DNA of 40,116 nt from Caryophanales bacterium (GTDB lineage: Bacteria; Bacillota_I; Bacilli_A; RF39; UBA660). A program made the position numbers and the translations under genes. A model generated the notes under the pieces. That model saw nothing but the letters and a program-made list of their open reading frames with translations. It was not told the origin of the DNA and searched no databases. The stretch is taken from contig JAEEKZ010000050.1 of NCBI GenBank assembly GCA_016288635.1, forward strand, positions 1-40,116, given 5' to 3'. How positions within the stretch are numbered: the first letter of the stretch is position 1; each line of letters starts with the position of its first letter. Of this stretch, positions 1 through 17,857 are shown piece after piece.

Positions 1-1639
1 AATATAATTTGTTATTATTCATATTTAATTCTTTAATACATGAATAATACTTTATTTTCTTTTTATCTAATACTTTAATTAATTCTTTTTCAAGGTTATT
101 GTATGATCCACAATTGAATATTACTTTCTCAACTTTAAAATTATCTATAAGATTTATTGCATCTCCCATATGGTCGTAATCTCCATGAGTAATAATTAAA
201 ACATCTATTCTTGCTATTCCCATACTATGTAAATAAGTAATAGTTTTTTCATAAATGTTTTTATTATATATTCCCCCACAATCGATTAATATGACTTTTG
301 ATTTATGAGGATATATTAATATGTTTTCATCTCCTTGTCCAACATCTGCTGCAATATAGTAAAATGAATTATCTAGATATGGAAGTAAAATGTTTATTAG
401 TAGAATAATAATATTTATGATAATGAATTTATAATTTCGTTTAGAAAAGAGAATTAAAAAAATGTAATATAAAGCAACTATAAAAATTGGCATTTTGGGG
501 ATTATTATGTTTAAGGAAACGTTAATTAATAAATTATTTAGAAAAAGAAATATATTTGCAAATATTATTGTAATGCGACTTAATGGTAAAAATATATATG
601 ATAATAAACAAGCTGGATATAGTATAAAAGTTACATATGGTACCATTACAATGTTTTTAAGTATGCTTAGAATATCAAGTTGATAATTTAAATTGATATT
701 TATAGGAAGACTATATAATAAAGCAATTAGACTTATGATAGTTATTTTTCTTAAATAGTTACCCCTAATGTACTTACGAGAGGCGTTTATTCCAAATGAA
801 ATAATAAATGAATATTTAAATGCCAGTGAATAAATGTTCCACGGGTTTATTAGCAATATAAAAAATAGAATAATTATTAATATTTGAATACTGTTTAGTT
901 TTAAATAACATTTATCATTTATGTAATGAAAAATATAACTTAATACTGCTCTAATTACGGATATACTGAATCCCGTTAAAAACGCATAGAAGAATAGAAT
1001 AAAGCTTATTATAAAAAAACGAGGAGTTTCCCTTAGAAAAAAGAATAATCCTCTTAGAAGTAATACCAATAAACTTATATGCATTCCCGATATAGCAATC
1101 AGGTGAACTATACCATTCTTTTTAAATAATTCATAATAATTTTCATCAAGATCATTTTTATTACCAAATATAAATAATTTTAAATAGCCACTCATTTTTT
1201 CATTATAATTGCATCTATTAAATAAATAATTTTTTATTTTATAAAAGAAACTTGCTTCTTTTATTACTTCTATGGTTTTTAAATTCATTGTGTAAAAAAT
1301 ATGATTATTATATAAGTATTTTTTGTTATTAAAGTTGTTAGGAATAGTATTATTAATAGGTTCTTTTAAACTTCCTGTTACTTTTACTATATCCCCATTC
1401 TCTATATCAATAGGATCATAAGAATATACCTTAATTTTCTCTTTCGATTTTAGAATAAAGCTTGTATATTCCTCTTTAATGATTATATTTGTTACTTTCC
1501 CTTCGAAAACTTCTTCAGATTCGTTATATATAGATTCATATTTTATTATCACAGTTTTTAGTACGCAATAAAGAACAATAAAAATAACTAGTAAGTAATA
1601 TAAAAGATTAGACTGTAATATGATCTTTAATCTTCTCAT
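1..1639 (-). CDS. comEC: ComEC/Rec2 DNA uptake channel protein, partial (C-terminus beyond window edge)
   Basis: Manual reverse-strand translation from ATG at 1637-1639 (MRRLKIILQSNLLYYLLVIF...), open to the window edge; contains HLIAISGMHI (ComEC competence motif) and DVGQGDENILI...THGDYDHMGD (metallo-beta-lactamase-like domain). Overlaps the 3' end of comEA. Not in the ORF track because it is truncated. Confidence 0.93.
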   Translation of the reverse strand, partial: MRRLKIILQSNLLYYLLVIFIVLYCVLKTVIIKYESIYNESEEVFEGKVTNIIIKEEYTSFILKSKEKIKVYSYDPIDIENGDIVKVTGSLKEPINNTIPNNFNNKKYLYNNHIFYTMNLKTIEVIKEASFFYKIKNYLFNRCNYNEKMSGYLKLFIFGNKNDLDENYYELFKKNGIVHLIAISGMHISLLVLLLRGLFFFLRETPRFFIISFILFFYAFLTGFSISVIRAVLSYIFHYINDKCYLKLNSIQILIIILFFILLINPWNIYSLAFKYSFIISFGINASRKYIRGNYLRKITIISLIALLYSLPININLNYQLDILSILKNIVMVPYVTFILYPACLLSYIFLPLSRITIIFANIFLFLNNLLINVSLNIIIPKMPIFIVALYYIFLILFSKRNYKFIIINIIILLINILLPYLDNSFYYIAADVGQGDENILIYPHKSKVILIDCGGIYNKNIYEKTITYLHSMGIARIDVLIITHGDYDHMGDAINLIDNFKVEKVIFNCGSYNNLEKELIKVLDKKKIKYYSCIKELNMNNNKLY

Positions 1640-2366
1640 ACATTGCCTCTCCTATTCCACTTACATTAGTAATATCATTAATTCTTTCAAACAAACCTTT
1701 TTGTTCTCTATATTCAATAATGCTATTAGCTTTAGATTCTCCCACTCCAGATAAGGTCATTAACTCCTCTTTGGATGCTGTATTGATATTTATTAAATCA
1801 TTATTTTTTTCTTCACAAAAGTCTTGCTCTATAATCAATCCTTCAACTTCTTCTTGTGGACTATCCACGGCAGCATCATTTTGAACTGTGGTATCTACTA
1901 TCATAGTGTCTGTCACCTGTTGCTCGATTATTTTGTCTTTATTGTCTTTTGAACAATATGTGTTTTTTAATGATTCGAGCGATTTTTTGAATTCAGTTTT
2001 TGTTGCTACATAAATAACCATTTCATTTTTTAATTCTTTGCTAAGGTTTATATTTAATGTGTATGCTGTACTTTTAAATCCTCCCGCAGCTTTTATGGCA
2101 TCGGTTACTAGTTTACCAAGTTCTAAGGAATAAACCCCTGGTTTTTTTACTGCTCCTTTTACATCTATATTTATTAGTTTAATTTCTTCTTCAGTTTCAT
2201 CCTGCTTTGTATCAGGGGCATTAGCATATTCTGTTATCCCTGATATTTCTTTCTCAACATAATTATTATTTGAATATAAATGAATTATTAGTATTAGTTG
2301 AGTACCTATAATTAGAAATAAAAACAAACATATAATATGCATCCTATATTTTTTTAGAAAGCTCAT
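1608..2366 (-). CDS. comEA: ComEA-like competence protein (TM anchor, SLBB domain, C-terminal helix-hairpin-helix)
   Basis: VDVKGAVKKPGVYSLELGKLVTDAIKAAGG (SLBB) and ININTASKEELMTLSGVGESKANSIIEYREQKG (HhH); upstream of comEC. Confidence 0.93.
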   Translation of the reverse strand: MSFLKKYRMHIICLFLFLIIGTQLILIIHLYSNNNYVEKEISGITEYANAPDTKQDETEEEIKLINIDVKGAVKKPGVYSLELGKLVTDAIKAAGGFKSTAYTLNINLSKELKNEMVIYVATKTEFKKSLESLKNTYCSKDNKDKIIEQQVTDTMIVDTTVQNDAAVDSPQEEVEGLIIEQDFCEEKNNDLININTASKEELMTLSGVGESKANSIIEYREQKGLFERINDITNVSGIGEAMYEKIKDHITV

Positions 2367-2439
2367 CTATTCACCTCCTTTCAAAAATATATATACAAAT
2401 GTCTTTTATTATTTCCTTGCAAAAAGAAGGCATAAAAAA

Positions 2440-2466
2440 AATAATAATTACTTTTGAATTATTATT
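2440..2466 (-). terminator. Rho-independent terminator after the L,D-transpeptidase gene
   Basis: Perfect 10-bp stem AATAATAATT-N7-AATTATTATT followed by a T run on the minus strand. Confidence 0.6.
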
Positions 2467-3548
2467 CTTACTTTATTATCTATTACACCATCGTGATTAG
2501 AATCCATATAATCATAGAATCTTGCACCTGTTGCTGTTGGTATACGCGTACAACCATGTGATTGAGGTTTACCAAAATCGGATTCTGGTTGGTTATAAGT
2601 ATGTGCGAAGTAGTTTCCATCATAGTGGAACGCATAGTCTACTGTTACACCAGCTTTGGTAAAAGTACGATCCCTTTCAGCTGTATCTATATACCACATT
2701 CCTTCAGGAGTCTCATATCCCCTTTTTCCTGTCGAAGCTTTTGAATTTATTAACATTTGTGTATTACAGTAAAAATTAAATCTTTGATCGCTTTTATCAA
2801 CAACAACAAATCTTCCCTTTAATTTTTCAATATCTCTTTTAGCAACATATCCAACGCTACCGTCATAAGATATTAAATAGTAATCATTCTCTTGTCTTAA
2901 TATATTAACAACATGTGGATAAGAAATGGCAACAGTTCTTCCTGTGCTAGTTGTAAACGATGTGTCGCGTTTTACAGCACCCATGCAGAATATTTCGATG
3001 TTCTCAGCATCAGGATAATATGATTGAACTGCACTTCTTAATGATCTTGTAAATTCTTTACTTATATATACGAATTGTCCATCATATCTAACTAAATACC
3101 ATTGGTCATCTACTTGAGCAATAGTTTCTATTTCATAACCTGAAGGTAAAGTACCAAGTTTTGTTTCATTGCTTTTAACAGGTTGACTTCTATAATTTAA
3201 TACGTCTGTAGTAACAACTACATCCTTATCTTCAACATAACAGTGTTCAGGAAGAACATTTCCGTATGTTTGAGTAAGAAATTCGTGAGAAACGTATCCT
3301 AGTTGACCATTACAAGATATGAAGTCCCAATCACCATCATTAAAGATAACTCTAACGGAATCACCTCTATTGAATCTACCAATCGCTTGATAATCAGTTC
3401 CTGGTCCTAATCTAAAATTAACTTTACTAGCTGTAATTGATGCATCTGCATCAACATTTGTTATTTCTGCTAAAGCAGCACCACTATTAATACACATTAC
3501 TGCACCTAATAAAAATGATGCTATTCTTTTATTAATTTTACCACACAT
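2448..3548 (-). CDS. Secreted L,D-transpeptidase (YkuD) with N-terminal SH3b domains
   Basis: SHGCTRIPTATGARFYDYM catalytic motif; SH3-like repeats (ITASKVNFRLGPGTDYQAIGRFNRGD); signal peptide. Start set at the internal ATG 3546-3548 with a GGGGG RBS rather than the ORF-track start 3605. Confidence 0.88.
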   Translation of the reverse strand: MCGKINKRIASFLLGAVMCINSGAALAEITNVDADASITASKVNFRLGPGTDYQAIGRFNRGDSVRVIFNDGDWDFISCNGQLGYVSHEFLTQTYGNVLPEHCYVEDKDVVVTTDVLNYRSQPVKSNETKLGTLPSGYEIETIAQVDDQWYLVRYDGQFVYISKEFTRSLRSAVQSYYPDAENIEIFCMGAVKRDTSFTTSTGRTVAISYPHVVNILRQENDYYLISYDGSVGYVAKRDIEKLKGRFVVVDKSDQRFNFYCNTQMLINSKASTGKRGYETPEGMWYIDTAERDRTFTKAGVTVDYAFHYDGNYFAHTYNQPESDFGKPQSHGCTRIPTATGARFYDYMDSNHDGVIDNKVRIIIQK

Positions 3549-3599
3549 ATCCAATTCCCCCTTTGAATATACGTACATTCTAGCACATTTAATAAAAAA

Positions 3600-3625
3600 A
3601 GTCAAATATTTGTTTGTATTTGACT
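3600..3625 (-). terminator. Rho-independent terminator after the AAA+ gene
   Basis: AGTCAAATA-N8-TATTTGACT hairpin followed by T run on minus strand. Confidence 0.65.
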
Positions 3626-3626
3626 C

Positions 3627-5228
3627 TTAATAATCGATATCATTCTTGGTAATTGTCTTTAAAATAGACTTTTTCTTGGCATTTTTAGTATTTGTAGCAT
3701 GCTTGATAACAGTCTTTTCATATACATTTCTAGCAAATCTTGCATTACCGAAATTCTTGGTATCTTTATATTGATCTACTAGCTTTTCGAATTCTTTTAA
3801 TGCATCATCATTGCATTCAAATCCTGCCTTTTTTACCATTCCAAGGAATATTTGACTTAATTCTTCTTTAGTATAATCATCAAACTCTAATGTATATCCT
3901 ATTCTAGATACTATTCCAGAGTTTGAATCTAGGAAGTCTTGCATTTCTTTAGTATATCCAGCAAAAATTACTACTAAATCGTCACGATAATCTTCCATCG
4001 CCTTAATTAGCGTTGCTATTGCTTCTGCATTATATTGGTTATCGCCTTTTTTATCTTGTAATGCATATGCTTCATCAATGAATAATACTCCACCCATTGC
4101 TCTATCTACAACACTCATTGTTTTTGGGGCTGTTTGTCCAACATATTCAGCAACTAAATCTTTTGAACTAACTTCAATTAATTTATTTTGCCTAATATAT
4201 TTTAAATCATATAGAATTCCGCATATCATTCTAGCTACTGTAGTTTTACCTGTTCCGGGATTTCCTAAGAATACCATATGTAAATTTATATTTCCTAGTT
4301 TTAATTCATCCTTTGTTTTATTTTTTAATGAAATTAAATCCACAAGGTCTTTTAATGATTTCTTAACTTTTTCTAATCCAACTAATTCATTTAAATCCTT
4401 AAATATTTCATCAATTGGTTTTAATTTTTCTAATTCAGGAACGTCTTTATTAAATGAAATATGATTAATTAAGATGTTTATATAATCAAGTGGATCTTTT
4501 GTAGATTTTGGATAAGTTTCTGTTATGTAATCCAATAATTTAACTTTAAATTCATCTTCTAAATTAAGATTATTAGTTGAATCTAATACTCTTTGATAAA
4601 CGTCGTTTAATTCTGGTTTTTCATACTTTAATTCAAATAAGAATCTATTGTTTAATTCATCATCTAATTGGAAGAATAATTTTAATCTATCTTCTTTATC
4701 AGCGACAATTGTAATTCTTTTTTCTAAACCTTCCATCATGTAATATACAAATTTCTTTTTGAAGTTATCATCATGCATATTGATGCCGTCTAAATCATTA
4801 AATACAATAATTCCATCTTCTTTATATAGTTTTATTAGTTTATCTATTTCATCTATTTTAATTAATGAATTAACACTTACTGTACTATTATCTATATAAT
4901 GATAATTTTTTACTGCTTTACTTAATAATTCCGCAACATCTTTAGAAATATATTCGTTATTAACTTTAATATTGAAGTTGATATAATTATCTACTTCTTT
5001 TGCATGGTATGACTCCATATACTTGATTATTTTCTTTAATAAAGTTTTTGAAGCCTCATCTAAGTATAGTTTGTCTACTTCGTCATTATAGTCCATTTTT
5101 TCTTCAGGAACTGTTTCTGTAGCTATAGTTGTTACCTCACCTTTTTCCTGTTTGTTTAGAAAATCATTTATATCTAAGGTTGCTTCAAAAAAATCCTTAT
5201 ATACATCATTTAAATCATATCTTTGCAT
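3627..5228 (-). CDS. CbbX/SpoVK-type AAA+ ATPase with degenerate N-terminal AAA-like copy
   Basis: Walker A GNPGTGKT, Walker B GVLFIDEAYAL, 'VSRIGYTLEFDDYTKEEL' lid typical of the SpoVK/CbbX clade. Confidence 0.88.
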   Translation of the reverse strand: MQRYDLNDVYKDFFEATLDINDFLNKQEKGEVTTIATETVPEEKMDYNDEVDKLYLDEASKTLLKKIIKYMESYHAKEVDNYINFNIKVNNEYISKDVAELLSKAVKNYHYIDNSTVSVNSLIKIDEIDKLIKLYKEDGIIVFNDLDGINMHDDNFKKKFVYYMMEGLEKRITIVADKEDRLKLFFQLDDELNNRFLFELKYEKPELNDVYQRVLDSTNNLNLEDEFKVKLLDYITETYPKSTKDPLDYINILINHISFNKDVPELEKLKPIDEIFKDLNELVGLEKVKKSLKDLVDLISLKNKTKDELKLGNINLHMVFLGNPGTGKTTVARMICGILYDLKYIRQNKLIEVSSKDLVAEYVGQTAPKTMSVVDRAMGGVLFIDEAYALQDKKGDNQYNAEAIATLIKAMEDYRDDLVVIFAGYTKEMQDFLDSNSGIVSRIGYTLEFDDYTKEELSQIFLGMVKKAGFECNDDALKEFEKLVDQYKDTKNFGNARFARNVYEKTVIKHATNTKNAKKKSILKTITKNDIDY

Positions 5229-5253
5229 AATAAGCCTCCCTTAATTCAAAAAT

Positions 5254-5272
5254 AAAGCATATTTTATGCTTT
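5254..5272 (-). terminator. Intercistronic hairpin between telA-like and AAA+ genes (weak terminator or attenuator)
   Basis: AAAGCATA-TTT-TATGCTTT inverted repeat followed by ATTTTT on minus strand, in the 42-nt gap. Confidence 0.4.
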
Positions 5273-6419
5273 ACTTTTCAACTTTTAGTTCTAACATTTT
5301 ATCTTTTAGTTCTTTTTCAATTGCAACTAATTCTTTTTCAGCTTCAACACGTTTAGCTCTTCCTTCTTCATGAATCTTAATTACAGATTCTAAAGTATCA
5401 ACGATATCTTTATTTGTCTTTCTAAGAGTTTCAATATCGATAATAGCTTTTTCAGATTCCTGAGCAATATTGATTGATCCTTGTTTTAATGTTTCACTAT
5501 TCTTCTTTAGCATATCATTTGTTAATTTAGATACTGCTTGTTGATTCTTTAATGCTCTTTGAGTATTAGTAATACCTAAAGCAAGTACCATTTGGTTTTT
5601 CCAAAGAGGAATTGTATTTGTAATTGAACTTTGAATCTTTTCAACTAATTCTGCATCAGCATTTTGTAACAATCTAATTTGTGGTGCCATTTGAATAGAT
5701 ATAATTCTTGTAGTTTTTAAATCATATATCTTCTTTTCAAATCTATTAATTTGTGCTTCTAAGTCATTTACTTTTTGAACATCAATTTGTTCTCCTGATT
5801 CTTTAGCTTTCTTTGTTAATTCTGGTAAAGTAACTTCCTTTAATTCTTTTAATTTTCTTTCACCAGCGATAATGTATAAAGAAACTTCTTTAAAATATTC
5901 TAAGTTCTTTTCATACATTGTATCAAACATATTAACATCTGTTAAAAGTTGGATTTTATTCTTTTCTAATCCACCCTCAATAGTGTCAATGTTCTTTTCA
6001 ACTTTACCATAGCTAGCTAAAATTTTATTGAATTCTTTCTTAGCACTATAGAATAATTTTGAAATACCTGTTTTTGGTGGTGTTGCAACACTATCAAATG
6101 TTTTGATTTCCGCAACTAATTCTGCTAATAAATCACCAGCATCACCAGTTTGTTTTGTTTTAACATTCTCTAATACTGTATCAGAGAATCTACTGATTTT
6201 GTCTTGAGCAGCTGCACCAAATTGTAATATTTGTGTTGAATCATAAATATCAATTTTCGAATTAAATTCATCTACTGCTTTCTTTTCAGCTTCTGTTAAT
6301 TCATCATAATTCAATGATTTTTCAATTTTTGCATCAGTTACTTCCTTACTTGTTGTTAATTCCGTAACAATGCTTTCATCCATTTTCTTATCTTCTACTT
6401 TGATTTCTAAATTTGCCAT
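5271..6419 (-). CDS. TelA/YaaN family 'toxic anion resistance' protein
   Basis: Predicted coiled-coil family with IPLWKNQMVLALG near the centre, characteristic of TelA; next-but-one to an XpaC-like gene as in B. subtilis xpaC-yaaN. Confidence 0.85.
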   Translation of the reverse strand: MANLEIKVEDKKMDESIVTELTTSKEVTDAKIEKSLNYDELTEAEKKAVDEFNSKIDIYDSTQILQFGAAAQDKISRFSDTVLENVKTKQTGDAGDLLAELVAEIKTFDSVATPPKTGISKLFYSAKKEFNKILASYGKVEKNIDTIEGGLEKNKIQLLTDVNMFDTMYEKNLEYFKEVSLYIIAGERKLKELKEVTLPELTKKAKESGEQIDVQKVNDLEAQINRFEKKIYDLKTTRIISIQMAPQIRLLQNADAELVEKIQSSITNTIPLWKNQMVLALGITNTQRALKNQQAVSKLTNDMLKKNSETLKQGSINIAQESEKAIIDIETLRKTNKDIVDTLESVIKIHEEGRAKRVEAEKELVAIEKELKDKMLELKVEK

Positions 6420-6437
6420 TTTTCCTTCTTCCTTTCT

Positions 6438-7643
6438 CTATTTAAGATAATCAATTAGTTGATTATAATAATCCATCTTTAAACTTGTTACTGTGCTTGT
6501 AATCTTTTGTGGAATTGCAATTCCAAATGATGATACATCGTATTTTCCACCAGTAACGCCAGTTCTAAATCCATATTTTTCCCATGCTATTTGTTGAATT
6601 TCACTATCATTAAATGCATCATATAGTTTTTTACCATTTTCAGTAAACGCTGCATAACAGTGTGAATTCCAAATTGTAGGTTTTGGATACAATATTATTA
6701 TATCATCTTTTACTTGAGCAAACTTATCAGGTTGCTCATTTGCAAATTCTATTATACTTTTTTCATAATCAACAATCATAGGTTTTCCACCCATTCCTGT
6801 CATTAAATATGATTGGAATAAATCTGCAGGAGTATTATTCATATATCCTGATTTAATATAGAATTCTTTTAATTTTGGTAAGTTTTCTTTAATACTTGAA
6901 TCTGTTATTTGATTTTCTCCAAGGATTGAAAGTAATAATCCATAGTATGTTGCTCCTGGACTTGATGTTACAGGATCTGTGGAAGCTATATTAAGGTTAC
7001 CATATAAATCTGGTAGGCTTATATCTTGCCACTTCTTTCCGTCTAGAATATAATCAATTAATTTATTCATATCACTTATGTAATAAACACCATCAGCGTC
7101 TTGAGTAACTATTCCTTCTTTTTGTAATGAAGCAACTACTTCTTTCCAACTATAAATTACAATTGGTGTATTAAGAGTTAATCCTCCATCTAATACTGAG
7201 AATCTTTCAGCTTCCCCTGCTGCTGTATCTGGTCTTAATTTGTAATAGTCATAGAATCTTTGGTCTGATGTAAATAATGCATCATATTGAGTTACTTCTT
7301 CACTATGTAATGAATATGTTTTACCATTTTCAATATTTTTAATTATATCTGGTTTACCATATTTAGCATATTCTCTATATAATGGCCAAAGTACTGTTTT
7401 ACCATTACTCCAGTTATCAAATACCGGATTAAGTTTATACTTATCTCTTAATATTTGAATTACTCTTTCATCAGCAAGGAAGTCTTCTTTTCCTCCACCC
7501 GTTGCAACATATACTGTAGTTAATTTAGATAAATCTACATTGTTTGGATTAGCAGGATTGTGATCTAGGAAATATTTTATTCCAACGATTGCTGCTAGTA
7601 AAACTACAAATATGCCTATTCCTATAATTCGTTTTTTGTCCAT
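6438..7643 (-). CDS. Membrane-anchored extracellular substrate-binding-like protein
   Basis: N-terminal TM (IIGIGIFVVLLAAIVGIKYFL) then type-2 periplasmic-binding-like sequence; no lipobox Cys. Confidence 0.65.
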   Translation of the reverse strand: MDKKRIIGIGIFVVLLAAIVGIKYFLDHNPANPNNVDLSKLTTVYVATGGGKEDFLADERVIQILRDKYKLNPVFDNWSNGKTVLWPLYREYAKYGKPDIIKNIENGKTYSLHSEEVTQYDALFTSDQRFYDYYKLRPDTAAGEAERFSVLDGGLTLNTPIVIYSWKEVVASLQKEGIVTQDADGVYYISDMNKLIDYILDGKKWQDISLPDLYGNLNIASTDPVTSSPGATYYGLLLSILGENQITDSSIKENLPKLKEFYIKSGYMNNTPADLFQSYLMTGMGGKPMIVDYEKSIIEFANEQPDKFAQVKDDIIILYPKPTIWNSHCYAAFTENGKKLYDAFNDSEIQQIAWEKYGFRTGVTGGKYDVSSFGIAIPQKITSTVTSLKMDYYNQLIDYLK

Positions 7644-7644
7644 A

Positions 7645-8259
7645 TTACTTACTCTCCTTTTCTTCAGTATTATTTACTTTAATGCCATCTGATTGCATCA
7701 TAGCATCAAATACTTTTAAATCTATACCGGTTTCTAGTATTTCTGATTCATATACATTGTTTAACATCTTTTTATATGCTTCATCTAGATTTTTAATCAT
7801 TTTATCCGTAGATTCCATAAATTTTTTTGAATCACTAGAAGTTAAATTTAAATCTTCAATAACATCATATCTATCAATTATACTTACTGTTGTTGGTAGA
7901 TAATATTCAAAGAAGTTTTTAACTTTTTTATGTTTCTTAGGGTCAGCTTCAATGGCACTAATTATTTTATAAATAGTATCATTTATGCTAATTATATATC
8001 TTTTTACTTCCGGAGTATCTATCTTTTTCGTCATATCCAGAATATGTTTATTTTGCTTTTTTGCATTCTCAACTTGTTCATATAAACTATAACTAAATTT
8101 TCTTAATTTGCTATCATTCTTTCCAAATACCAACTGGCCTGCGACAAAGGCACCACCACCAATTAATAATGATGGAAGAATGGGAACAGATAGTGCCAAG
8201 TAAGGAACTGCAAAGAAAACTCCACCTGCCGCTGCCGACAGAATATTCTTACTATCCAT
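7645..8259 (-). CDS. XpaC-like (5-bromo-4-chloroindolyl phosphate hydrolysis family) membrane protein
   Basis: N-terminal TM pair and 'VKNFFEYYLPTTVSIIDRYDVIEDL' resembling the XpaC family; adjacent to telA. Confidence 0.75.
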   Translation of the reverse strand: MDSKNILSAAAGGVFFAVPYLALSVPILPSLLIGGGAFVAGQLVFGKNDSKLRKFSYSLYEQVENAKKQNKHILDMTKKIDTPEVKRYIISINDTIYKIISAIEADPKKHKKVKNFFEYYLPTTVSIIDRYDVIEDLNLTSSDSKKFMESTDKMIKNLDEAYKKMLNNVYESEILETGIDLKVFDAMMQSDGIKVNNTEEKESK

Positions 8260-8270
8260 ACTATATCCTC

Positions 8271-9872
8271 CTAGTTATAATTTCTAACTTCTTTAAATGC
8301 TGCTAATAAATTTTCTTTTCCATCAAATATTTTAGCATTGGTTAAATTTGCAATTTCTTGAAGTTGTCTTTCATCAGCAGTACCAAATGTAATGCTATAA
8401 ACTGGAATTCTTAAATTATTTCTACGATAATAATATGATAAATTTTGATATGTTCCAACATTGGCTGCACCATCAGTCATTGCAATAACAACTTTGTTAT
8501 AATCGTCACTTTCATTTTTTAATAATTCAAGTGCGTTTTGTATTGCATCATATAAAGCTGTTGATCCTCCAACTGAATTAGTCTTTATTTTGTTAATTAA
8601 TTCACTTGTATTATTTCCATAGTATGGTCCCCAAGTCTTATTAGCTCTCGTTTCAAATGGTATTACCGTTATTTTATCTTTTCTTGAGAACTGTAAGTTA
8701 TCTGATGCAGATTTTTCACTATCTAACAAATAATCCATAGAATTAATTAGACTTTCTATTCCTTCGCCATACATACTTCCTGAGTAATCTAGGCAAAATA
8801 CAATATCAATCGGTTTTCTAAATTCATCTAAGTAAAGGGTGATAGCCTTATTTATTACCTTTTTAGATGGATATTTAACCGCTGTTAAATATCTTGTGGT
8901 ATCTATACCATCATCTGGATTAAATATGCTCTTATCAGCATTTTTATTAATACCACCATACCAAGTTCTTCTACCAGTTTTTAATAATTCCCTTTGTCCT
9001 TCTTCACCTAATAAATATTTCTTTAAAGCGAAGTATTGGTCTTTTTTATCAGTATCGCCTTTGATATATGCGAATGTTGAATCATTAATTGGAACCCCGT
9101 CAACTGGGTAAATTGTATATAACTTATCATCTCCATTTAACTGTTTGTTAATATTAATAATTGATGATTCACTGGTGATGATTGCTTCAAAGTTCTTGTC
9201 GTTTTTGAACATTTCTTCAAGGTATGTTTCACTACCTGATACTCTTTCTACCCCAGAGAATAAACTTACTAGATTTTCTGCTAGTCTATCATCATCTAGC
9301 ATTTCTGTAGTTAACACCTCTGGAGATCCAGCAAGTGTATTTAGGAATCCTAGATATGCTGTTGCTCCTGTGTTAGTTGATAATACATTTGGCATAACAT
9401 ACTTTATTTGTTTGTTTTTAATAAGTTCTAGTATATCAGCGTTAGTAACTTTTCTATCAATTAAGCCAAGTTCTTTTGCTTTACTCTTTCTAATACCCAT
9501 GACTACTGGGGAAATACTTATTGAAGATGACTCAGAATAAATTGAGGTATTATCTAGCATATATAACCATAATGAGTTAGATATCCATGCTCCATTATAT
9601 TTACCTGAATTGGTATTTAATTCTTCAACAATGTCCAAATCACCCATATGGGTTATTTCCAAATCAATTTTATTCTTTTTAGCATAGGCTTTAAATGATT
9701 CATCTACAAATCTATTTTCATCTGAAGATAACAGATGAAAGGCATTATCATTTCTTCTGGGTTTATTTTCTATTGAATTGTTATTGTCTTCACCACCAAA
9801 GAAGACAAAATAGCCTATTACAAATAAAACTATCGCTAAAAGAATATTTCCTGAATCTTTATTTTTTTTCAT
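8271..9872 (-). CDS. Substrate-binding domain + von Willebrand factor A domain fusion, membrane-anchored
   Basis: C-terminal VWA with MIDAS (DYSGSMYG ... GGSTALYDAI ... VIAMTDGAAN); N-terminal TM and SBP-like region. Start chosen at ATG 9870-9872 (MKKNKDSGN). Confidence 0.82.
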   Translation of the reverse strand: MKKNKDSGNILLAIVLFVIGYFVFFGGEDNNNSIENKPRRNDNAFHLLSSDENRFVDESFKAYAKKNKIDLEITHMGDLDIVEELNTNSGKYNGAWISNSLWLYMLDNTSIYSESSSISISPVVMGIRKSKAKELGLIDRKVTNADILELIKNKQIKYVMPNVLSTNTGATAYLGFLNTLAGSPEVLTTEMLDDDRLAENLVSLFSGVERVSGSETYLEEMFKNDKNFEAIITSESSIININKQLNGDDKLYTIYPVDGVPINDSTFAYIKGDTDKKDQYFALKKYLLGEEGQRELLKTGRRTWYGGINKNADKSIFNPDDGIDTTRYLTAVKYPSKKVINKAITLYLDEFRKPIDIVFCLDYSGSMYGEGIESLINSMDYLLDSEKSASDNLQFSRKDKITVIPFETRANKTWGPYYGNNTSELINKIKTNSVGGSTALYDAIQNALELLKNESDDYNKVVIAMTDGAANVGTYQNLSYYYRRNNLRIPVYSITFGTADERQLQEIANLTNAKIFDGKENLLAAFKEVRNYN

Positions 9873-9891
9873 AATACACGCCCTTTTCCTT

Positions 9892-10803
9892 TTATATTGT
9901 TTCTTTATTCTCAATTACATGTGGTAAATATATTCTTAAACCTATTAGTATTGGGGGAATAATAAAGTATGCTATCGTAAACATTGTTAAGTCTGATGTA
10001 ATTGGTAATAGCAATTGATTTGCTGACTCCCAAACTGTCGGAATAACTACAAGTGATGAAGTTGCTAAACTAAATGCTGTTGAAATAGCAAGCAGAATAA
10101 GCGATGCTATTATAAAACTTGCTGCAATCCAAGGGAAAGTTTTTATAAAACTTCTTTGTGCAGCGAACATACCTAAGATTATCAACACTCCAAAAATAAT
10201 TAGAACATTGCTTATAGCTTTTCCGGTAAAAACCATCGCCATTGAGTTTGCTTGAATAGCATATGTTTTAATAATTTTTATTAGTCCCTTATAATTTGTA
10301 GATAATATTTCATTAGCAGTTTTGGAATCCTTCCCAACTAATTTATTTCCCTCAAATTTTATTTGGGCATCATCACTAGATACTTCAAATTGTCCTGAAT
10401 ATATTATATAATTTGCAACATCCTCTAAAGTGTTCATTTCAGATGTATCAGTAAAAACTGATAATTTTTCTTTTAGCATTATTGTAATTTCTTCGCCTAA
10501 CGTTAATCCAGATTCCTTATATCTAGATAATAATTGTTTATAATCATCAGTTTTAAGATTTAATTGTTTTGTGATAGAGTTATCGTCTACCTCATCATAA
10601 AAAGAAGCGCTATCTATTACCTTTTGTATATCAAAATTGTCTATTGCTTTTTCTATTTTTTCGTTGCTTAGATTATTATTAATCGATTTTGTAATTGCAA
10701 ACCCTGACAAAACAAAGGTAAGGCCTATAACTAACAATATAGATATTATTATGCAAACAATATTAATAATGGTTTTTTTATCAAATTTAATATTTGTATT
10801 CAT
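9892..10803 (-). CDS. Multi-TM membrane protein, first gene of the TelA/VWA/AAA operon
   Basis: One N-terminal and several C-terminal TM segments around an extracytoplasmic region; RBS GAAGGTGAT before ATG 10803. Confidence 0.6.
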   Translation of the reverse strand: MNTNIKFDKKTIINIVCIIISILLVIGLTFVLSGFAITKSINNNLSNEKIEKAIDNFDIQKVIDSASFYDEVDDNSITKQLNLKTDDYKQLLSRYKESGLTLGEEITIMLKEKLSVFTDTSEMNTLEDVANYIIYSGQFEVSSDDAQIKFEGNKLVGKDSKTANEILSTNYKGLIKIIKTYAIQANSMAMVFTGKAISNVLIIFGVLIILGMFAAQRSFIKTFPWIAASFIIASLILLAISTAFSLATSSLVVIPTVWESANQLLLPITSDLTMFTIAYFIIPPILIGLRIYLPHVIENKETI

Positions 10804-10855
10804 AATATCACCTTCTTTATAATCCATTAGTATTTTATCACATAAATGCCAATTA

Positions 10856-10879
10856 AAAAAGATGGATTGACCATCTTTT
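10856..10879 (-). terminator. Rho-independent terminator separating 10878-11411 from the downstream operon
   Basis: AAAAGATGG-N5-CCATCTTTT with T run on minus strand. Confidence 0.6.
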
Positions 10880-11411
10880 ATGAAATCTTTTCGTATTCAA
10901 TACCATCAATAGTTACAGTATTACCATCTTGACTAAATTCTAAATTTTCAAATTTTCGCTTTGGTGCAGGGATCAATAGAGCTCTAATATTCTCAGGTAC
11001 TTCAATTGGGGCTAAATTTTCTTGAATCATTATACTGTCCTTATAACATTTACATAATACATATGTATTTGTTGGTGATTTTTGTCCGCCATAATCAATT
11101 ATATTTTTTTTATCCTCAATTTGGTTTGTGTTAGGGTTAAAAATCTGCACTATAGTGCTGCCACCTTCTTTATCGCCACTGTATTCACCATTTTGCATAA
11201 GTCGTTTAACTATTCCATAACATTTAAACCCATGCTCATTTATATTCTTTTTTAATTTTTTTTCTGCTATTCCAGCAAAAATAAGGAGGCCTCCTGTTAT
11301 TGTAAAAATCGCAAAAAACACTAATGAAATGCCATGGCTTTCGGGTATCCACCAAAAAGGAAGAATAGATAAAGAAACGAATATTATCATTATTATTCCT
11401 GCTATTATCAT
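10878..11411 (-). CDS. Small membrane protein, paralogue of 11429-11974 (uncharacterised)
   Basis: TM helices, then ...GFKCYGIVKRL...VQIFNPNTNQIED...YVLCKCYKD...FSQDGNTVTIDGIEYEKIS. Confidence 0.7.
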   Translation of the reverse strand: MIIAGIIMIIFVSLSILPFWWIPESHGISLVFFAIFTITGGLLIFAGIAEKKLKKNINEHGFKCYGIVKRLMQNGEYSGDKEGGSTIVQIFNPNTNQIEDKKNIIDYGGQKSPTNTYVLCKCYKDSIMIQENLAPIEVPENIRALLIPAPKRKFENLEFSQDGNTVTIDGIEYEKIS

Positions 11412-11428
11412 GTTACATTCTCCTTTTA

Positions 11429-11974
11429 TTATTTTTTCTTGTATTTAACGCCATCTATGGTTACATATTCTCCATCTGGGCTAAATACTACATTTTCCGA
11501 ATTGGAAAAGTTTGATATTATTATTAACCTTTTTTTGGTTTCTTCTGGGATTTCATTTATATCTATTTTTTTTATTATATTTACATCTCCTTGATAATAT
11601 TTACATAGCACGATAGAGTTTACAGAATATTTTTTGTAGTTAAAACCTATAACTTCTTCAAAATCCTCTAATTGGTTTGTTTCGGGATTCACAATTTGAA
11701 TAGTTGCTTTATATTCTGGATTATCATTAACAGCAAAATCAGTTGTTTTTATTTCCCTAACCACTCCGTAACATTGAACACCATTTTTTTCGGTTTTTAT
11801 ATTTTGTATTACTGTTTTTCCACCACTAATTATTAAATATAAGGCTATAGCATCAAATACATATATAAGATTAAATGGCCCCATTAACATAAGAGAATGA
11901 GTCATTTCATAGAACATATGATGAAAAAACGTCACAAAACACCCAAATAAAATACCAGTTACTAATTTTGCCAT
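11429..11974 (-). CDS. Small membrane protein, paralogue of 10878-11411 (uncharacterised)
   Basis: TM helices, then ...GVQCYGVVREI...IQIVNPETNQLED...IVLCKYYQGD...FSPDGEYVTIDGVKYKKK. Confidence 0.7.
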   Translation of the reverse strand: MAKLVTGILFGCFVTFFHHMFYEMTHSLMLMGPFNLIYVFDAIALYLIISGGKTVIQNIKTEKNGVQCYGVVREIKTTDFAVNDNPEYKATIQIVNPETNQLEDFEEVIGFNYKKYSVNSIVLCKYYQGDVNIIKKIDINEIPEETKKRLIIISNFSNSENVVFSPDGEYVTIDGVKYKKK

Positions 11975-12037: not shown

Positions 12038-14404
12038 TTATTCCATTCTTAGTGATTCAACTGGGTCTTTTTTTGCAGCCATACTTGCTGGTTTGTAACC
12101 TGCAATAACATTTAATATAATACTTAATAACACTAAAACTATGGCACTAGTTATAGGAAGTTTAGCCATACTTTCGAATTTAAATATTGCAACTAATATT
12201 ACATTGATTAAATTTGATAAAGCCAGAGCAACTACAATTCCTAATATACCGGCAATTGCTCCTTCAATAATTGTTTCTGCTATAAATACTCTTCTAACAT
12301 CTTTCTTTGATGCCCCAATCGCTCTTAATATTCCAATTTCTTTTGTTCTTTCTAGTACACTAATATAGGTAATAATAGATATCATTATTGAAGATACAAT
12401 TAGACTTATAGCAACAAAAGCAATTAATACATACGAAACAATATCAACAACTTTTGTGATTCCTCCCACTACGCCTTTCATTATGTCAGAGTATGTTATT
12501 TCTAAATCTGTGAACTTGTTGTCATCATTATATTTTGTTATTAAATCCTCTAGTTTTTCTTTTGATTCATAGTCTTTGGGATAAATATTAATACTTGATG
12601 GATCATCTAGTTCATATAATGCAAGTTTTGATGCAACATCATCGTATGTGTTTAAGAAGCCATCAAATTCTTCTCCGGTTAATACATTTACATTTTTGTT
12701 GTTAATTTGAGCTTGATATATTTGTGTTTGGCTATTCATCTCAATTACTTTTTCCGTTAATTGCTTTGTATATCCAACAAAACTTTCTGAACTTTCTTTG
12801 TCTTTAACTAATCCCACCACTTTGAGAGTAATTCCATTATTAATTATATTTTTCATATAGTTTTGATTGTTAGAATTATCAATATAAATATTATTTTCTA
12901 GTTTATAATAGTCAGTATTTAATATTAATTTATATGATAGGTTTAATAGTTTGTCATATGAAAATGATGTGGTCTCAACTTTGTAACCCTTACTCTTTTT
13001 AATTTTAGAAATATCTTCTATTAATATTTTTTTATCTTTAATTCCTAGCGAATAAAGAATAGTATCGTTTATTTGATTATCACTATTAACTACTAAAACT
13101 ATTTCATTTTCATTAGATGGTAAAGAACCCGCTAATAATTCATATTTCTTCTCTTTAATATCTATTTCTTTAAATAGATTTGTTTCTGTAGAATTTACTC
13201 CTAAATTACTTGGATTAACTTTTTCATAATCATTTGTATATACTTGGGGAATGATACCATAGTCATATTCTATTTTTGTTGATAATTCTTCAAATTCTTT
13301 TGTTGATTCTATGTATTTCTTAAATGCTTTGGTATTATTCTTTTTTAACACACCCTCATCTGTTATAGCAGATACTCTTACAATGTCATCTGTTGAACAA
13401 ATTTTATTTTCCGCACATTTTTCATTATCCCCAATCATTGAGAATGCCGCACTTAATGTTCCAAATAAATCATAACTTGTTTTTTCAATTCTTAAAGGAT
13501 AATCTGATAGTGATTCTCTTTCTAATTTTTTAGCATAACTATTAACTCCATTTGATAAAGCTAGGATTAAAGCAATTCCAATAATGCCTATTGAACCAGC
13601 AAGTGCAGTCAAAAAGGTTCTTCCTTTTTTTGTTAACAGATTGTTTAAAGACAATGATAAAGCCGATAGCAATGACATTGAAGTTTTGTTTGTCTTTTTT
13701 GCTTCTTTATTATCCTTTTCTTTACCCTTTACTGGATTACTGTCATTAATTATCAATCCATCTTTTAATTCAATTATTCTTGTCGAATATTTCTTAGCTA
13801 TCTCTGGATTATGGGTTACCATGATTACTAATTTATCTTTAGAAATTTCTTTTAACAAATCCATGATTTGATAGCTTGTTACAGAGTCTAGTGCTCCAGT
13901 TGGCTCATCAGCAAGGATTATCTCCGGATTGTTGACCAAAGCTCTAGCTATAGCTACTCTTTGCATTTGACCACCAGATAATTGGTTTGGTTTTTTTAAT
14001 ATGTGTTCTTTTAAGCCAACTTTTTCTAGGGCTTCAGTTGCTCTTTTTGTTCTTTCTGTTTTAGATACGCCTGATAATGTTAATGCTATCTCAACATTTT
14101 GTAATACACTTTGATGCATTATTAAATTATAATTTTGAAAAATAAAACCAACGCGATAATTACGATATGAGTCCCAATCTCTATCAGTGAATTCCTGAGT
14201 CGATATTCCGTCAATGGTTAAATCACCATCATCATATCGATCTAATCCCCCAATAATATTTAGTAGTGTTGTTTTACCACTTCCTGATGAACCTAAAATA
14301 GATGTGAATTCGTTATTTCTAAATTTTATATCAATTCCTTTAAGTACTTCTTGAATTGTTTCTCCAACTACATAACTCTTTTTTATCTTTTTTAATTCTA
14401 ACAT
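12038..14404 (-). CDS. MacB-like ABC transporter, fused ATPase-permease
   Basis: Walker A GSSGSGKTT, signature LSGGQMQRVAIARALVNNPEIILADEPTGALD, FtsX-like C-terminus (TKEIGILRAIGASKKDVRRVFIAETIIEG). Start set at ATG 14402-14404 preceded by AGGAGA (MLELKKIKKSY). Confidence 0.9.
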   Translation of the reverse strand: MLELKKIKKSYVVGETIQEVLKGIDIKFRNNEFTSILGSSGSGKTTLLNIIGGLDRYDDGDLTIDGISTQEFTDRDWDSYRNYRVGFIFQNYNLIMHQSVLQNVEIALTLSGVSKTERTKRATEALEKVGLKEHILKKPNQLSGGQMQRVAIARALVNNPEIILADEPTGALDSVTSYQIMDLLKEISKDKLVIMVTHNPEIAKKYSTRIIELKDGLIINDSNPVKGKEKDNKEAKKTNKTSMSLLSALSLSLNNLLTKKGRTFLTALAGSIGIIGIALILALSNGVNSYAKKLERESLSDYPLRIEKTSYDLFGTLSAAFSMIGDNEKCAENKICSTDDIVRVSAITDEGVLKKNNTKAFKKYIESTKEFEELSTKIEYDYGIIPQVYTNDYEKVNPSNLGVNSTETNLFKEIDIKEKKYELLAGSLPSNENEIVLVVNSDNQINDTILYSLGIKDKKILIEDISKIKKSKGYKVETTSFSYDKLLNLSYKLILNTDYYKLENNIYIDNSNNQNYMKNIINNGITLKVVGLVKDKESSESFVGYTKQLTEKVIEMNSQTQIYQAQINNKNVNVLTGEEFDGFLNTYDDVASKLALYELDDPSSINIYPKDYESKEKLEDLITKYNDDNKFTDLEITYSDIMKGVVGGITKVVDIVSYVLIAFVAISLIVSSIMISIITYISVLERTKEIGILRAIGASKKDVRRVFIAETIIEGAIAGILGIVVALALSNLINVILVAIFKFESMAKLPITSAIVLVLLSIILNVIAGYKPASMAAKKDPVESLRME

Positions 14405-14449
14405 GTTATTTCTCCTAACGTTTGATATTATAGTATTTCTATATCTCAA

Positions 14450-14481
14450 AAAAAAGACTATTTTGTCGTTATAGTCTTTTT
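14450..14481 (-). terminator. Terminator after the RsgI-like gene
   Basis: AAAAGACTAT...(N)...ATAGTCTTTT hairpin with flanking A/T runs. Confidence 0.6.
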
Positions 14482-15860
14482 TAATTATGATTTGCTTCAA
14501 TTATATCGTATATTATGCATTCGGTTCCTTTTAAGCGACTGTTTTCTCTTTCACAATAATATCCAGGTGTTTTTTCAATTACATCATTGTAATTAATACA
14601 TTTATCATCTTCAGTTTTTGTATATCCACTTGGGCATTCTCTCTCGTGTCTTGGATCTTCCGCTTCTTCTTTTAGACATTTTTGTCCATCAAGAGTATAT
14701 CCATTTGGGCATCCATATTCTTCCACGATTGGGTCAATGTATTTAATTGAGTGTTCACAATATTCATCTCTACTCTTATATTGCTTACCATCACGATATC
14801 CTTCACAAATTAGTATGTTAGATGCATCATCCCAGCATTCTCCGCCTACTTGGATTTTTCCTGGGCATCCTGATGCAATAACCGGAGCTCTATGCCAATA
14901 GCATTTTCCACCAACTTTTTTAAATTCTGTACCATCGTGAGTTTCGCATGGAGACACTGGGTGTTTTGCATTTGATTTATCAACGCATACTATATCGTTT
15001 GCATCGCCAGCATTAGCCGTGGTTAATCCCATTTTTAATCTTGTTGATTCCTCTCCTGATGGGCATGTATATTTTATTGGTGTTGCATCAATTCTTTCTG
15101 TTCTTATACATTTATTATCCACTAATTCAAATTCACTAGGACAATATAATCTATCAGTATCAATAACTCCAGTTTCGGCATAGCATGTGCCTCCATTATC
15201 TACATATCCATTTGGACATACTTCTCCATTGGAAGCTGCATATCTTTCTCTTTCTTTTAAGCAAGAATCCCCTTCAAGGGTATATCCTTTATCACAAGAA
15301 ATTCCAGATGATTTTGTTTCCTCTAGTTCGTGAACTGATTTATCAATTAATGCTTCAACATCAATATTCTCATTTTCCTTTTTTACTTGATTGATATATG
15401 ATGCTTTACCAATGGAAATATTGTGTTTCTTAGCAAGCTCTTCATCTTCTTTTGTTACTTTATCAATTGTTATAATATAAGGATTTAGACCTTTTTCTTC
15501 GTATGAGTCTCTTATTTTTTTGTCTAGCTCATCATTTGATATTTTTCCTTTTGAGTAAATTATTATTTCAATATGTTCTTGGTCAACATATCCTTTTTCA
15601 ACAGTCTTTTCGGCAATATAGTTTAATGTTTCGTCTAGTGATTTTCCAACTAGATTTTGACTAATAACTTCTTTAGCATCATCATTTAGTGCAATAATGC
15701 TTTTGACCATAGAGTTATTAGTCAAATTAATTTCAATGCTAGGATTTATATCTAGCGTAATTGTTGAAGCAGCTTTATTATTTCCAAATAATATGAAACA
15801 AGCAACTCCTACAACTAAAACAAGGCAAATAAGTATGGGAATAAGTATTTTCTTTTTCAT
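14481..15860 (-). CDS. RsgI-like single-pass membrane protein with a Cys-rich modular ectodomain
   Basis: TM then TLDINPSIEINLTNNSMVKSIIALNDDAKEVI (RsgI extracytoplasmic-type motif), followed by about ten C-P-x-G-[YF]-...-C modules. Start at ATG 15858-15860 with AGGAGAGAG RBS. Confidence 0.7.
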   Translation of the reverse strand: MKKKILIPILICLVLVVGVACFILFGNNKAASTITLDINPSIEINLTNNSMVKSIIALNDDAKEVISQNLVGKSLDETLNYIAEKTVEKGYVDQEHIEIIIYSKGKISNDELDKKIRDSYEEKGLNPYIITIDKVTKEDEELAKKHNISIGKASYINQVKKENENIDVEALIDKSVHELEETKSSGISCDKGYTLEGDSCLKERERYAASNGEVCPNGYVDNGGTCYAETGVIDTDRLYCPSEFELVDNKCIRTERIDATPIKYTCPSGEESTRLKMGLTTANAGDANDIVCVDKSNAKHPVSPCETHDGTEFKKVGGKCYWHRAPVIASGCPGKIQVGGECWDDASNILICEGYRDGKQYKSRDEYCEHSIKYIDPIVEEYGCPNGYTLDGQKCLKEEAEDPRHERECPSGYTKTEDDKCINYNDVIEKTPGYYCERENSRLKGTECIIYDIIEANHN

Positions 15861-15905
15861 AATTCTCTCTCCTACTATATAAAGTATAACATATATTATT
15901 GAAAC

Positions 15906-15934
15906 AAAAAACAAGATTCATTAATCTTGTTTTT
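15906..15934 (-). terminator. Terminator after 15969-17060
   Basis: AAAAACAAGAT-N7-ATCTTGTTTTT. Confidence 0.65.
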
Positions 15935-15968
15935 AACATTTATTATTTTCTTCTTAAAACATGAATAA

Positions 15969-17060
15969 TTACATTTTATCTATTTTTTCTAAAAATTCAT
16001 TTGAATATTTATACCATTTATAAATAGATTTTTTCTTTTCTTGGTATTTAATTAATTCTTCTTCAGTATAATTATAATTTAATTTGTATCTTTCGATACA
16101 TCTTTCATAACATTTATCTATACTTGTTCTAATAACAATTAAGGTTCCTTTTAGAAGATTAATATCTTTTATGCAATGAAATTGTGCACAATCAATTACT
16201 ATAGTTTTATCACTATTTTTACAATAGTTTAATATTTCTGTATATATTAGATCAAAATCATCACCACAGTTCGGAAGTTTATCAAATTTGCTTCTAAAAT
16301 GTTCACCTAGTTCTTTATTAATTCCACTTGTAACTTCAAATCTTGCATCAGAAAAAATATCATCTGTATCAATAACTAAATAGTTTTCATTGTTGAAATG
16401 CTCACTAGCATAGGTTGACTTGCCAGATCCACTTTGACCTGTTAGATTAATAATCTTATCATCTGTAATTTTTTTGATGAATGGTTCTTTATCCACATAC
16501 AAACTAATATCAACTGGGCTTTTTATTTCTTCTAATATTTCTTTAACCTTGTTATAGCATTCATAGTCAACTTCATGCCAAGGTTTTATTGAAGTGTTAA
16601 ATTCCTCAAGTGCTTCATCTATGTTTGATAAATTTACTTTATCCTTGATTATCATTAAAGCAAGATTATAGTATCCCCTTGTTGATAATAGTCCAATACA
16701 TTCAAAATATGTTGATAATGGTAGTTTTGATTTATGATAAAAATCTAGAAGTAATTCTTCTGAGATTGGTATAGGATTTTTTAAAATTATTTTATTTGCA
16801 ATTATTATTCCTCCTGGAGTCTTATCGTTTCTTACTTCAAATATTTCTCCATCAGTTGGAATTTCTACTTCATATAAAGTATCCCCTCTAGACATCCATC
16901 TAAGAGCACATTCTTCATTTGTAAAATTGAATCCACCTCTTTTATCCCAATCACTATTTTGGGGATCCCATGTATCAGCTGTGATTACTTTTCCAATTTC
17001 AAATGATTTGTCATTTGTATGCCCCATTTTCGTACCAAATACCCATTTTAAATACTTCAT
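15969..17060 (-). CDS. Two-domain protein: uncharacterised N-terminal domain + C-terminal P-loop kinase
   Basis: C-terminal Walker A GQSGSGKSTYA with downstream VIDTDD and TIVIDCAQ; N-terminal YLKWVFGTK...GGFNFTNEECALRWMSRGDTLYEVEIP. Confidence 0.7.
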   Translation of the reverse strand: MKYLKWVFGTKMGHTNDKSFEIGKVITADTWDPQNSDWDKRGGFNFTNEECALRWMSRGDTLYEVEIPTDGEIFEVRNDKTPGGIIIANKIILKNPIPISEELLLDFYHKSKLPLSTYFECIGLLSTRGYYNLALMIIKDKVNLSNIDEALEEFNTSIKPWHEVDYECYNKVKEILEEIKSPVDISLYVDKEPFIKKITDDKIINLTGQSGSGKSTYASEHFNNENYLVIDTDDIFSDARFEVTSGINKELGEHFRSKFDKLPNCGDDFDLIYTEILNYCKNSDKTIVIDCAQFHCIKDINLLKGTLIVIRTSIDKCYERCIERYKLNYNYTEEELIKYQEKKKSIYKWYKYSNEFLEKIDKM

Positions 17061-17089
17061 TATTATCCCTCTTTCTTGCGATTAATATT

Positions 17090-17434
17090 TTAATTTGCTT
17101 TTCTATTTATTAAATTTACTATGCCTGTTACTCCTGTTACTATAAGAGATGCTACTAAGTGACATGTTGCATAGATCATGACTGCATCAAATTGATTGTA
17201 ATGAATAAAACCTGATGGTATAAATATTACAAATACAATAATTGGATAAAAATACTTTATTCTTTTTTGTGATATACAGCATAATATAATCGAAAGAATA
17301 AATGTTAGTAAAATATTTAAGAAAATAGTAACAACCATAGTATCTTTTGATATGTTGTTAGCTATTAATGGCAATATATAAAATAGTAATAATTGAATAA
17401 TTAATATTATTATTTCTTTAAAATATTTATTCAT
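17090..17434 (-). CDS. Small membrane protein, 114 aa
   Basis: About four hydrophobic segments; good intergenic spacing with flanking genes. Confidence 0.55.
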   Translation of the reverse strand: MNKYFKEIIILIIQLLLFYILPLIANNISKDTMVVTIFLNILLTFILSIILCCISQKRIKYFYPIIVFVIFIPSGFIHYNQFDAVMIYATCHLVASLIVTGVTGIVNLINRKAN

Positions 17435-17452
17435 TCTTTTCTCCTTGAATTA

Positions 17453-17857
17453 TTATTTTATTAGTTTATTCTTTAAGCAGTATGGAACAACCTCATTTTT
17501 TAATGTGTTAGAAAGAATATCATATCCATCTGATGATTCATACCATTTGAATGTTTCAATTTCTTCAGATGAAGTTAGTTTTCCCTCTAATTGGCCATTA
17601 TACTTAAATACATAAAAATGAATTGGAGTAACGCCATCACTTGTTGCAATTTCATTAAATTCCATGACCAATTCAATTAATGAATTGTCAAATATAGCTT
17701 CGTTTCCCAATTCCTCGTGGCATTCTCTTATTGCAGCCTCAATTGGGGTTTCCCCATCTTCAACTCTTCCACCAATCATTTGATATGTTGGTCTTTTTCT
17801 CGGTTTATCAATAAGTAATTTTTGATTTTTAAAAAACATTGTTCCTACAACTTCCAT
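17453..17857 (-). CDS. NUDIX hydrolase
   Basis: Complete Nudix box GRVEDGETPIEAAIRECHEELGN. Confidence 0.9.
   Translation of the reverse strand: MEVVGTMFFKNQKLLIDKPRKRPTYQMIGGRVEDGETPIEAAIRECHEELGNEAIFDNSLIELVMEFNEIATSDGVTPIHFYVFKYNGQLEGKLTSSEEIETFKWYESSDGYDILSNTLKNEVVPYCLKNKLIK

Follow-up and report, generated by a model that had tools for sequence, protein, structure and literature searches.

We analysed a 40,116-nucleotide stretch of DNA from a Caryophanales bacterium (assembly GCA_016288635.1, contig JAEEKZ010000050.1; hereafter the window), in which six open reading frames (ORFs) on the minus strand form an operon that encodes, in the order of transcription, a membrane protein, a solute-binding protein (SBP) fused to a VWA domain (SBP-VWA), an XpaC protein, a second SBP (SBP2), TelA and an AAA+ ATPase (Table 1). 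SBP-VWA, XpaC, SBP2, TelA and, usually, the AAA+ ATPase constitute a module whose genes are acquired or lost together and that is not a transporter. Successive genes are separated by 19, 11, 1, 18 and 42 nt, in agreement with a preliminary description of this DNA as a tightly packed six-gene minus-strand operon with gaps of 1–42 nt. The terminators that it placed near 10856 and 3600 are both recognizable in the sequence as a stem followed by a T tract, and both were overlooked by a simple terminator scanner (3628–3594 and 10880–10854). As also proposed there, each SBP appears to be tethered by a single N-terminal transmembrane (TM) helix, whereas hydropathy analysis assigns a two-TM hairpin to XpaC and no TM to TelA or the AAA+ ATPase. 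The host draft genome (1.14 Mb, 89.5% complete) contains this one TelA.

Table 1. Coordinates of the operon genes and of the flanking terminators within the window
Feature	Position	Strand	Basis
Gene 1, membrane protein, 303 aa	9892..10803	-	ORF list; predicted TMs
Gene 2, SBP-VWA	8271..9872	-	Pfam, MIDAS alignment, AlphaFold2, Foldseek
Gene 3, XpaC (PF10112)	7645..8259	-	Pfam, hydropathy, co-occurrence with SBP2
Gene 4, SBP2	6438..7643	-	AlphaFold2, Foldseek, hhalign
Gene 5, TelA (PF05816)	5271..6419	-	Pfam
Gene 6, AAA+ ATPase, CbbX/SpoVK/EccA type	3627..5228	-	Pfam, profile and structure-database matches
Rho-independent terminator 3' of gene 6, 12-bp stem and T tract	3594..3628	-	z = -3.5
Terminator of the upstream gene, stem AAAGATGG/CCATCTTT and T tract, 5' boundary of the operon	10854..10880	-	Sequence

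Two tethered solute-binding proteins without a permease

SBP-VWA matches the Pfam families VWA (6e-16) and SBP_bac_11 (1e-7) and comprises a membrane-anchored type-II SBP with a C-terminal VWA fusion, the metal ion-dependent adhesion site (MIDAS) of which is complete (D362-x-S364-x-S366, T438 and D467) and invariant across 43 SBP-VWA homologues. In Foldseek comparisons with the AlphaFold2 model (predicted local distance difference test, pLDDT, of 88), the SBP half resembles sugar-phosphate (AfuA), iron (FbpA) and sulfate SBPs and the remainder resembles VWA structures; the matches include PDB 6lkg, which is annotated in the PDB as a mediator of two-component signalling. SBP2 is modelled with a type-II solute-binding fold despite the lack of any matching Pfam family, and a sequence search for solved relatives returned none that was convincing. 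The AlphaFold2 model of SBP2 (pLDDT of 88, with an N-terminal helix at residues 3–28) is matched by FbpA (ferric iron), ModA (molybdate) and sulfate-binding proteins, with Foldseek E values of 1e-10 to 1e-9 and target-normalised template-modelling scores of up to 0.65. The alignment of 45 SBP2 homologues has a mean column identity of 69%, and the two binding proteins are paralogous (hhalign E value of 4e-8, probability 95%). On their predicted structures, both proteins share the type-II fold of the SBPs that serve ABC importers, and the fold matches suggest that they belong to the anion/metal class.

Both SBPs are predicted to be extracytoplasmic from their signal, lipobox or TM features. SBP-VWA carries a TM anchor in this genome; a pattern search finds a lipobox in its Variovorax, Deinococcus and Sphaerotilus counterparts, and one is readable by eye in that of Nonomuraea. 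The VWA domain is therefore predicted to face outwards. A Pfam search of the six proteins found neither a permease nor an ATPase of an ABC importer in the operon, and the sole binding-protein-dependent (BPD) permease of the genome sits within a complete amino-acid importer that has its own SBP and ATPase. Import through a distant ABC permease, which the preliminary description had named as grounds for refutation, is thus rejected for this assembly, as far as its completeness of 89.5% allows, and, with no orphan permease found elsewhere, the earlier proposal that the operon does not encode a transporter is upheld.

Conservation within the family and recurrence in other phyla

We found 80 TelA loci. 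In 45 of them, from related genomes, SBP-VWA, XpaC, SBP2 and TelA follow one another in this order, and the gaps between them have medians of 2, −11 and 10 nt. The AAA+ gene comes after TelA in 32 of the 45, lying at most 250 nt away in all except one (31/32). Two further loci hold a partial set at a contig end; SBP2 is missing from the remaining 33, in 26 of which XpaC adjoins TelA and no other of the five module families is present. Inheritance of the module was assessed in 145 genomes of the host's family, one per genus: SBP2 is present in 17 and XpaC in the identical 17, and nested within these are full-length SBP-VWA (16 genomes), a strong TelA (14) and a strong AAA+ protein (13). The co-occurrence is significant (hypergeometric p ≤ 2e-15, uncorrected for phylogenetic relatedness), and several of the absences fall at contig ends. 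Across a phylum-wide sample of 392 genomes, matches are confined to the host's family. The neighbourhood survey that the preliminary description had put forward as a check therefore finds the set conserved in relatives and, together with the co-occurrence, bears out its view of the genes as a functional unit.

This holds for five of the six genes. Gene 1, predicted to have one N-terminal TM, an outer part of about 150 aa and four C-terminal TMs, matches no Pfam or other profile family; no counterpart of it precedes SBP-VWA in the loci of relatives, and a search of 59 related genomes yielded one weak partial match. It was rejected as a core member on these grounds, and this gene, private to the present genome, appears to be a lineage-specific passenger that is co-transcribed by virtue of its position.

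Outside the family, tblastn searches of plasmid and secondary-replicon records identified SBP-VWA in Variovorax, Sphaerotilus, Nonomuraea and Deinococcus, in each case with SBP2 nearby (4/4), the homology of SBP2 across phyla being secure (hhalign E value of 1e-26). TelA lies between SBP2 and SBP-VWA in Variovorax, Sphaerotilus and Nonomuraea, and none is annotated at the Deinococcus locus. The order at these loci, SBP2–TelA–SBP/VWA–hairpin protein, differs from that of the Bacilli, and the recurrence of the same core in a different order argues for function over inherited synteny. Indeed, a conserved operon of unrelated functions held together by synteny alone would suit the finding that most of the TelA loci come from related rumen or gut Bacilli-type metagenome-assembled genomes (MAGs), but is rendered highly improbable by the rearranged core in other phyla and by the all-or-none presence across genera.

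Several loci show variations on these arrangements. The four-gene order is also seen in one Lachnospiraceae MAG (L065). An opposite-strand cassette of six genes is situated between TelA and the AAA+ gene in L034 (11215–14573), L025 and L114 (1616–4987), and additional genes, whose products match no Pfam family and are 522 and 610 aa long, lie between SBP2 and TelA in L019 (8329–9897) and L010 (8138–9970), respectively. In Streptomyces (L092, 6671–9311) and Miltoncostaea (L093, 6809–9314), the gene after SBP-VWA encodes a protein that begins with a hydrophobic segment, and no TelA is annotated nearby; these loci are possibly a minimal version of the module. The Variovorax locus (L083) has flotillin and OB-fold genes near the module (779–3174) and a Wadjet-type operon downstream (12532–17485).

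Within the window, two adjoining minus-strand genes at 10878–11974 encode small membrane proteins of 177 and 181 aa that belong to no family, are similar to each other and both contain an NPxTNQxED stretch, and are likely to represent a tandem duplication. Further upstream of the operon, past a terminator, the minus-strand region 12038–15914 contains an ABC-FtsX fusion (789 aa; 12038–14407), preceded by a gene whose product carries an RsgI-like anti-sigma domain, giving the surroundings an envelope-related character. Judged from its family, the fusion would be of exporter type and unrelated to SBP-dependent import. Just past the operon terminator, an SH3-SH3-SH3-L,D-transpeptidase is encoded on the minus strand at 2448–3548, with its own promoter-like site at 3605–3577.

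The intracellular components and their exchange

XpaC consists of an N-terminal two-TM hairpin followed by a helical domain that is presumably cytosolic, and TelA is soluble. Both exceed the curated cut-offs of their Pfam families (PF10112, 2e-19, 70.9 bits vs 29.8; PF05816, 4e-115, 385 bits vs 30), as expected for an XpaC–TelA pair, and a sequence search for solved relatives of XpaC gave no convincing match. The ATPase matches AAA (5e-20) and AAA_lid_6 (2e-11) and carries its own N-terminal region of about 270 aa. Among solved structures, it is closest to CbbX (3zuh, E value of 2e-73) and EccA1 (9lur, 3e-58), bpMoxR being a marginal match (E value of 0.07), which places it in the CbbX/SpoVK/EccA class with AAA_lid_6 rather than with MoxR, although it stays below the equivalog cut-offs for CbbX (234.5 vs 459 bits), SpoVK (244 vs 423) and EccA (194 vs 467).

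The preliminary description had drawn an analogy with the MoxR/VWA and CbbQ/CbbO pairs. This is unlikely to apply, because the VWA domain and the ATPase are predicted to lie on opposite sides of the membrane: SBP-VWA has a TM segment or lipobox, whereas the CbbX/SpoVK/EccA-type ATPase has neither TM nor signal. A direct AAA+–VWA chaperone pair was thus rejected on topology, and of the proposed sensor module coupled to a remodelling ATPase we retain the general idea without this analogy. Rather, the client of the ATPase, if it lies within the set, is likely to be either TelA or XpaC, the latter through its cytosolic part. The ATPase is dispensable, being missing from 11 loci at which the sequence continues for 2 kb or more downstream of TelA (for 6–10 kb at most of them). 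A further pairing of TelA with an ATPase occurs in L116 (2484–6946), where a distant TelA adjoins an AAA_5-type ATPase and a 435-aa protein.

The same topology bears on the possibility that the module performs non-ABC uptake or surface assembly, with XpaC and TelA receiving a ligand (lipid-linked or a cell-wall precursor) from the SBPs, or with the VWA domain anchoring an assembly chaperone. MoxR/VWA and CbbX-type ATPases have roles in assembly or remodelling, and such a machine would account for the retention of two SBPs without an ABC permease and for the invariant MIDAS. We nevertheless judge it very unlikely, since XpaC has only two TMs and no other polytopic protein is conserved, the VWA domain and the ATPase are in separate compartments, and no conserved wall or lipid enzyme lies nearby, the L,D-transpeptidase at 2448–3548 having no counterpart in the neighbourhoods of relatives.

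In two relatives (G290 and G446; E values of 1.5e-28 and 4e-24), SBP-VWA, XpaC and SBP2 are followed by an SPFH/Band_7_1 protein that replaces TelA and the ATPase (loci L110, 7267–8229, and L111, 6911–7870), starting 12 nt and 2 nt, respectively, past SBP2, and no TelA is found in either genome. Band_7_1 proteins are present in 49 of the 145 family genomes, and G290 and G446 each have a second one elsewhere, so that the SPFH protein of the module is an additional copy. We infer that TelA and SPFH occupy one slot, that of a membrane-associated scaffold controlled by outside sensors. In membrane-stress systems, PspA is repeatedly partnered by Band-7 and AAA+ proteins (PMC11237479). PspA_IM30 itself was found in none of the 145 family genomes, the host included, vs 9 of 14 control genomes.

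A possible envelope-sensing machine

The reading that we favour, and to which we give an even chance, is that the module works as a machine of the TelA/XpaC class for envelope sensing and membrane protection, equipped with extracellular anion-type SBP/MIDAS sensors. The two paralogous type-II SBPs of the anion/metal class would be held on the outer membrane face, where closure upon a ligand, together with the VWA MIDAS, may lead to docking onto a surface or envelope partner. The XpaC hairpin, possibly with the TM helix of SBP2, would pass the state of the SBPs to TelA, which would build a scaffold beneath the membrane, and the ATPase may then disassemble or recycle TelA. The envelope-stress role suggested by the preliminary description is in keeping with the literature on XpaC and TelA: xpaC-yaaN is a core member of the sigma-W regulon of B. 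subtilis, to which the pspA and floT operons also belong (PMC3498285), and lmo1966-1967, the Listeria XpaC/TelA, features in the envelope-stress literature (PMC12791056). TelA has been described as a former of sub-membrane structures (PMC7824862), and a Listeria telA mutant, as cited in PMC12791056, is 4-fold more susceptible to nisin and 2-fold more sensitive to tellurite.

These effects also bear on a role in resistance to toxic oxyanions or metals, in which the SBPs would capture or sense oxyanions (tellurite, phosphate-like) or ferric iron and TelA and XpaC would effect tolerance. The name and history of TelA point in this direction, as do the tellurite phenotype of the mutant and SBP folds nearest to FbpA, ModA and sulfate or sugar-phosphate binders; the nisin effect of the same mutant is the larger of the two in the cited account, however, and the neighbourhoods examined contain no recurrent reductase, efflux pump or sequestering enzyme, leaving this role improbable.

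Exclusion of phages or bacteriocins by a surface receptor that triggers a sub-membrane barrier to the entry of DNA or toxin would be consistent with the patchy, all-or-none spread (17/145 genera), with the proposal that TelA/Ter systems block the entry of phages or xenobiotics (PMC7824862) and with the Wadjet-type defence operon about 3 kb from the Variovorax locus. PADLOC recognized no defence system, returning only weak, generic AAA matches (IetA and others), a search of 50,697 phage records gave zero matches, and the remaining loci examined are not evident defence islands. A PADLOC-type defence system and a phage-borne module are both rejected accordingly, and we regard exclusion as quite unlikely.

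Several points weigh against the envelope-sensing machine. Its members are known here from sequence and prediction. The nearest fold matches of the SBPs bind ligands as different as iron, sugar phosphates, sulfate and molybdate. For TelA, a sequence search returned no matching solved structure, and its scaffold role is the inference of other authors. The SPFH exchange is limited to two genomes, and at the 11 loci without an AAA+ gene the machine must either run without the ATPase or use one encoded elsewhere. In other phyla, the hairpin protein resembles XpaC in size, in its place beside SBP-VWA, in having one or two TMs predicted within a hydrophobic N-terminus and, by eye, in a YLP motif, but was rejected as an XpaC homologue because the hhalign alignment is not significant.

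The component families and the XpaC–TelA pair are already known. The module shares its adjacent XpaC and TelA, with a presumed envelope-stress context, with the xpaC-yaaN pair of Firmicutes (linked to sigma-W, CesSR or LiaR), to which it adds two membrane-tethered SBPs, one with a VWA domain, and a CbbX-type ATPase. With Ter/TelA systems (TerC, TerD, TerF-vWA and TelA) it has in common a TelA accompanied by a vWA protein and proposed sub-membrane structures; unlike in those systems, no TerB, TerC or TerD domain occurs among the six operon proteins, and the vWA domain is predicted to be extracytoplasmic and is fused to an SBP. The likeness to Psp and SPFH systems (PspA–Band-7–AAA+) is functional, residing in a sub-membrane scaffold with an AAA+ or Band-7 partner, whereas PspA is absent from the sampled family and SPFH fills the TelA slot in the two relatives. 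The type-II SBP fold is shared with SBP-dependent ABC importers, from which the module differs by the absence of a permease or ATPase subunit and its genome by the absence of an orphan permease, and the notion of an extracytoplasmic SBP receptor is shared with signalling SBPs (PDB 6lkg), although the module has no histidine kinase. Its AAA+ core belongs with CbbX and EccA, well below the cut-offs for CbbX, SpoVK and EccA, and, in contrast to MoxR/VWA and CbbQ/CbbO, its VWA domain is predicted in the other compartment. The set of SBP-VWA, SBP2, XpaC, TelA and AAA+ ATPase is not described in the literature searched, a key 2012 survey of TelA/Ter lying outside that search.

TelA and XpaC are widespread and repeatedly linked to tolerance of nisin and other envelope-active compounds. 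Here they belong to a small group of genes inherited together, with predicted sensors outside, an ATPase inside and a core found across phyla, which makes the role of TelA testable. A fuller proposal, which we put forward as tentative and rather unlikely in its entirety, is permease-free outside-in signalling, whereby paralogous anion-class SBPs, one with a MIDAS VWA, would switch a TelA scaffold through the XpaC hairpin, the CbbX-type ATPase would recycle TelA in the manner of Vps4 and ESCRT-III, and SPFH could replace TelA. If true, this would assign a function to TelA and XpaC and would provide a clear case of solute-binding proteins that serve solely as receptors.

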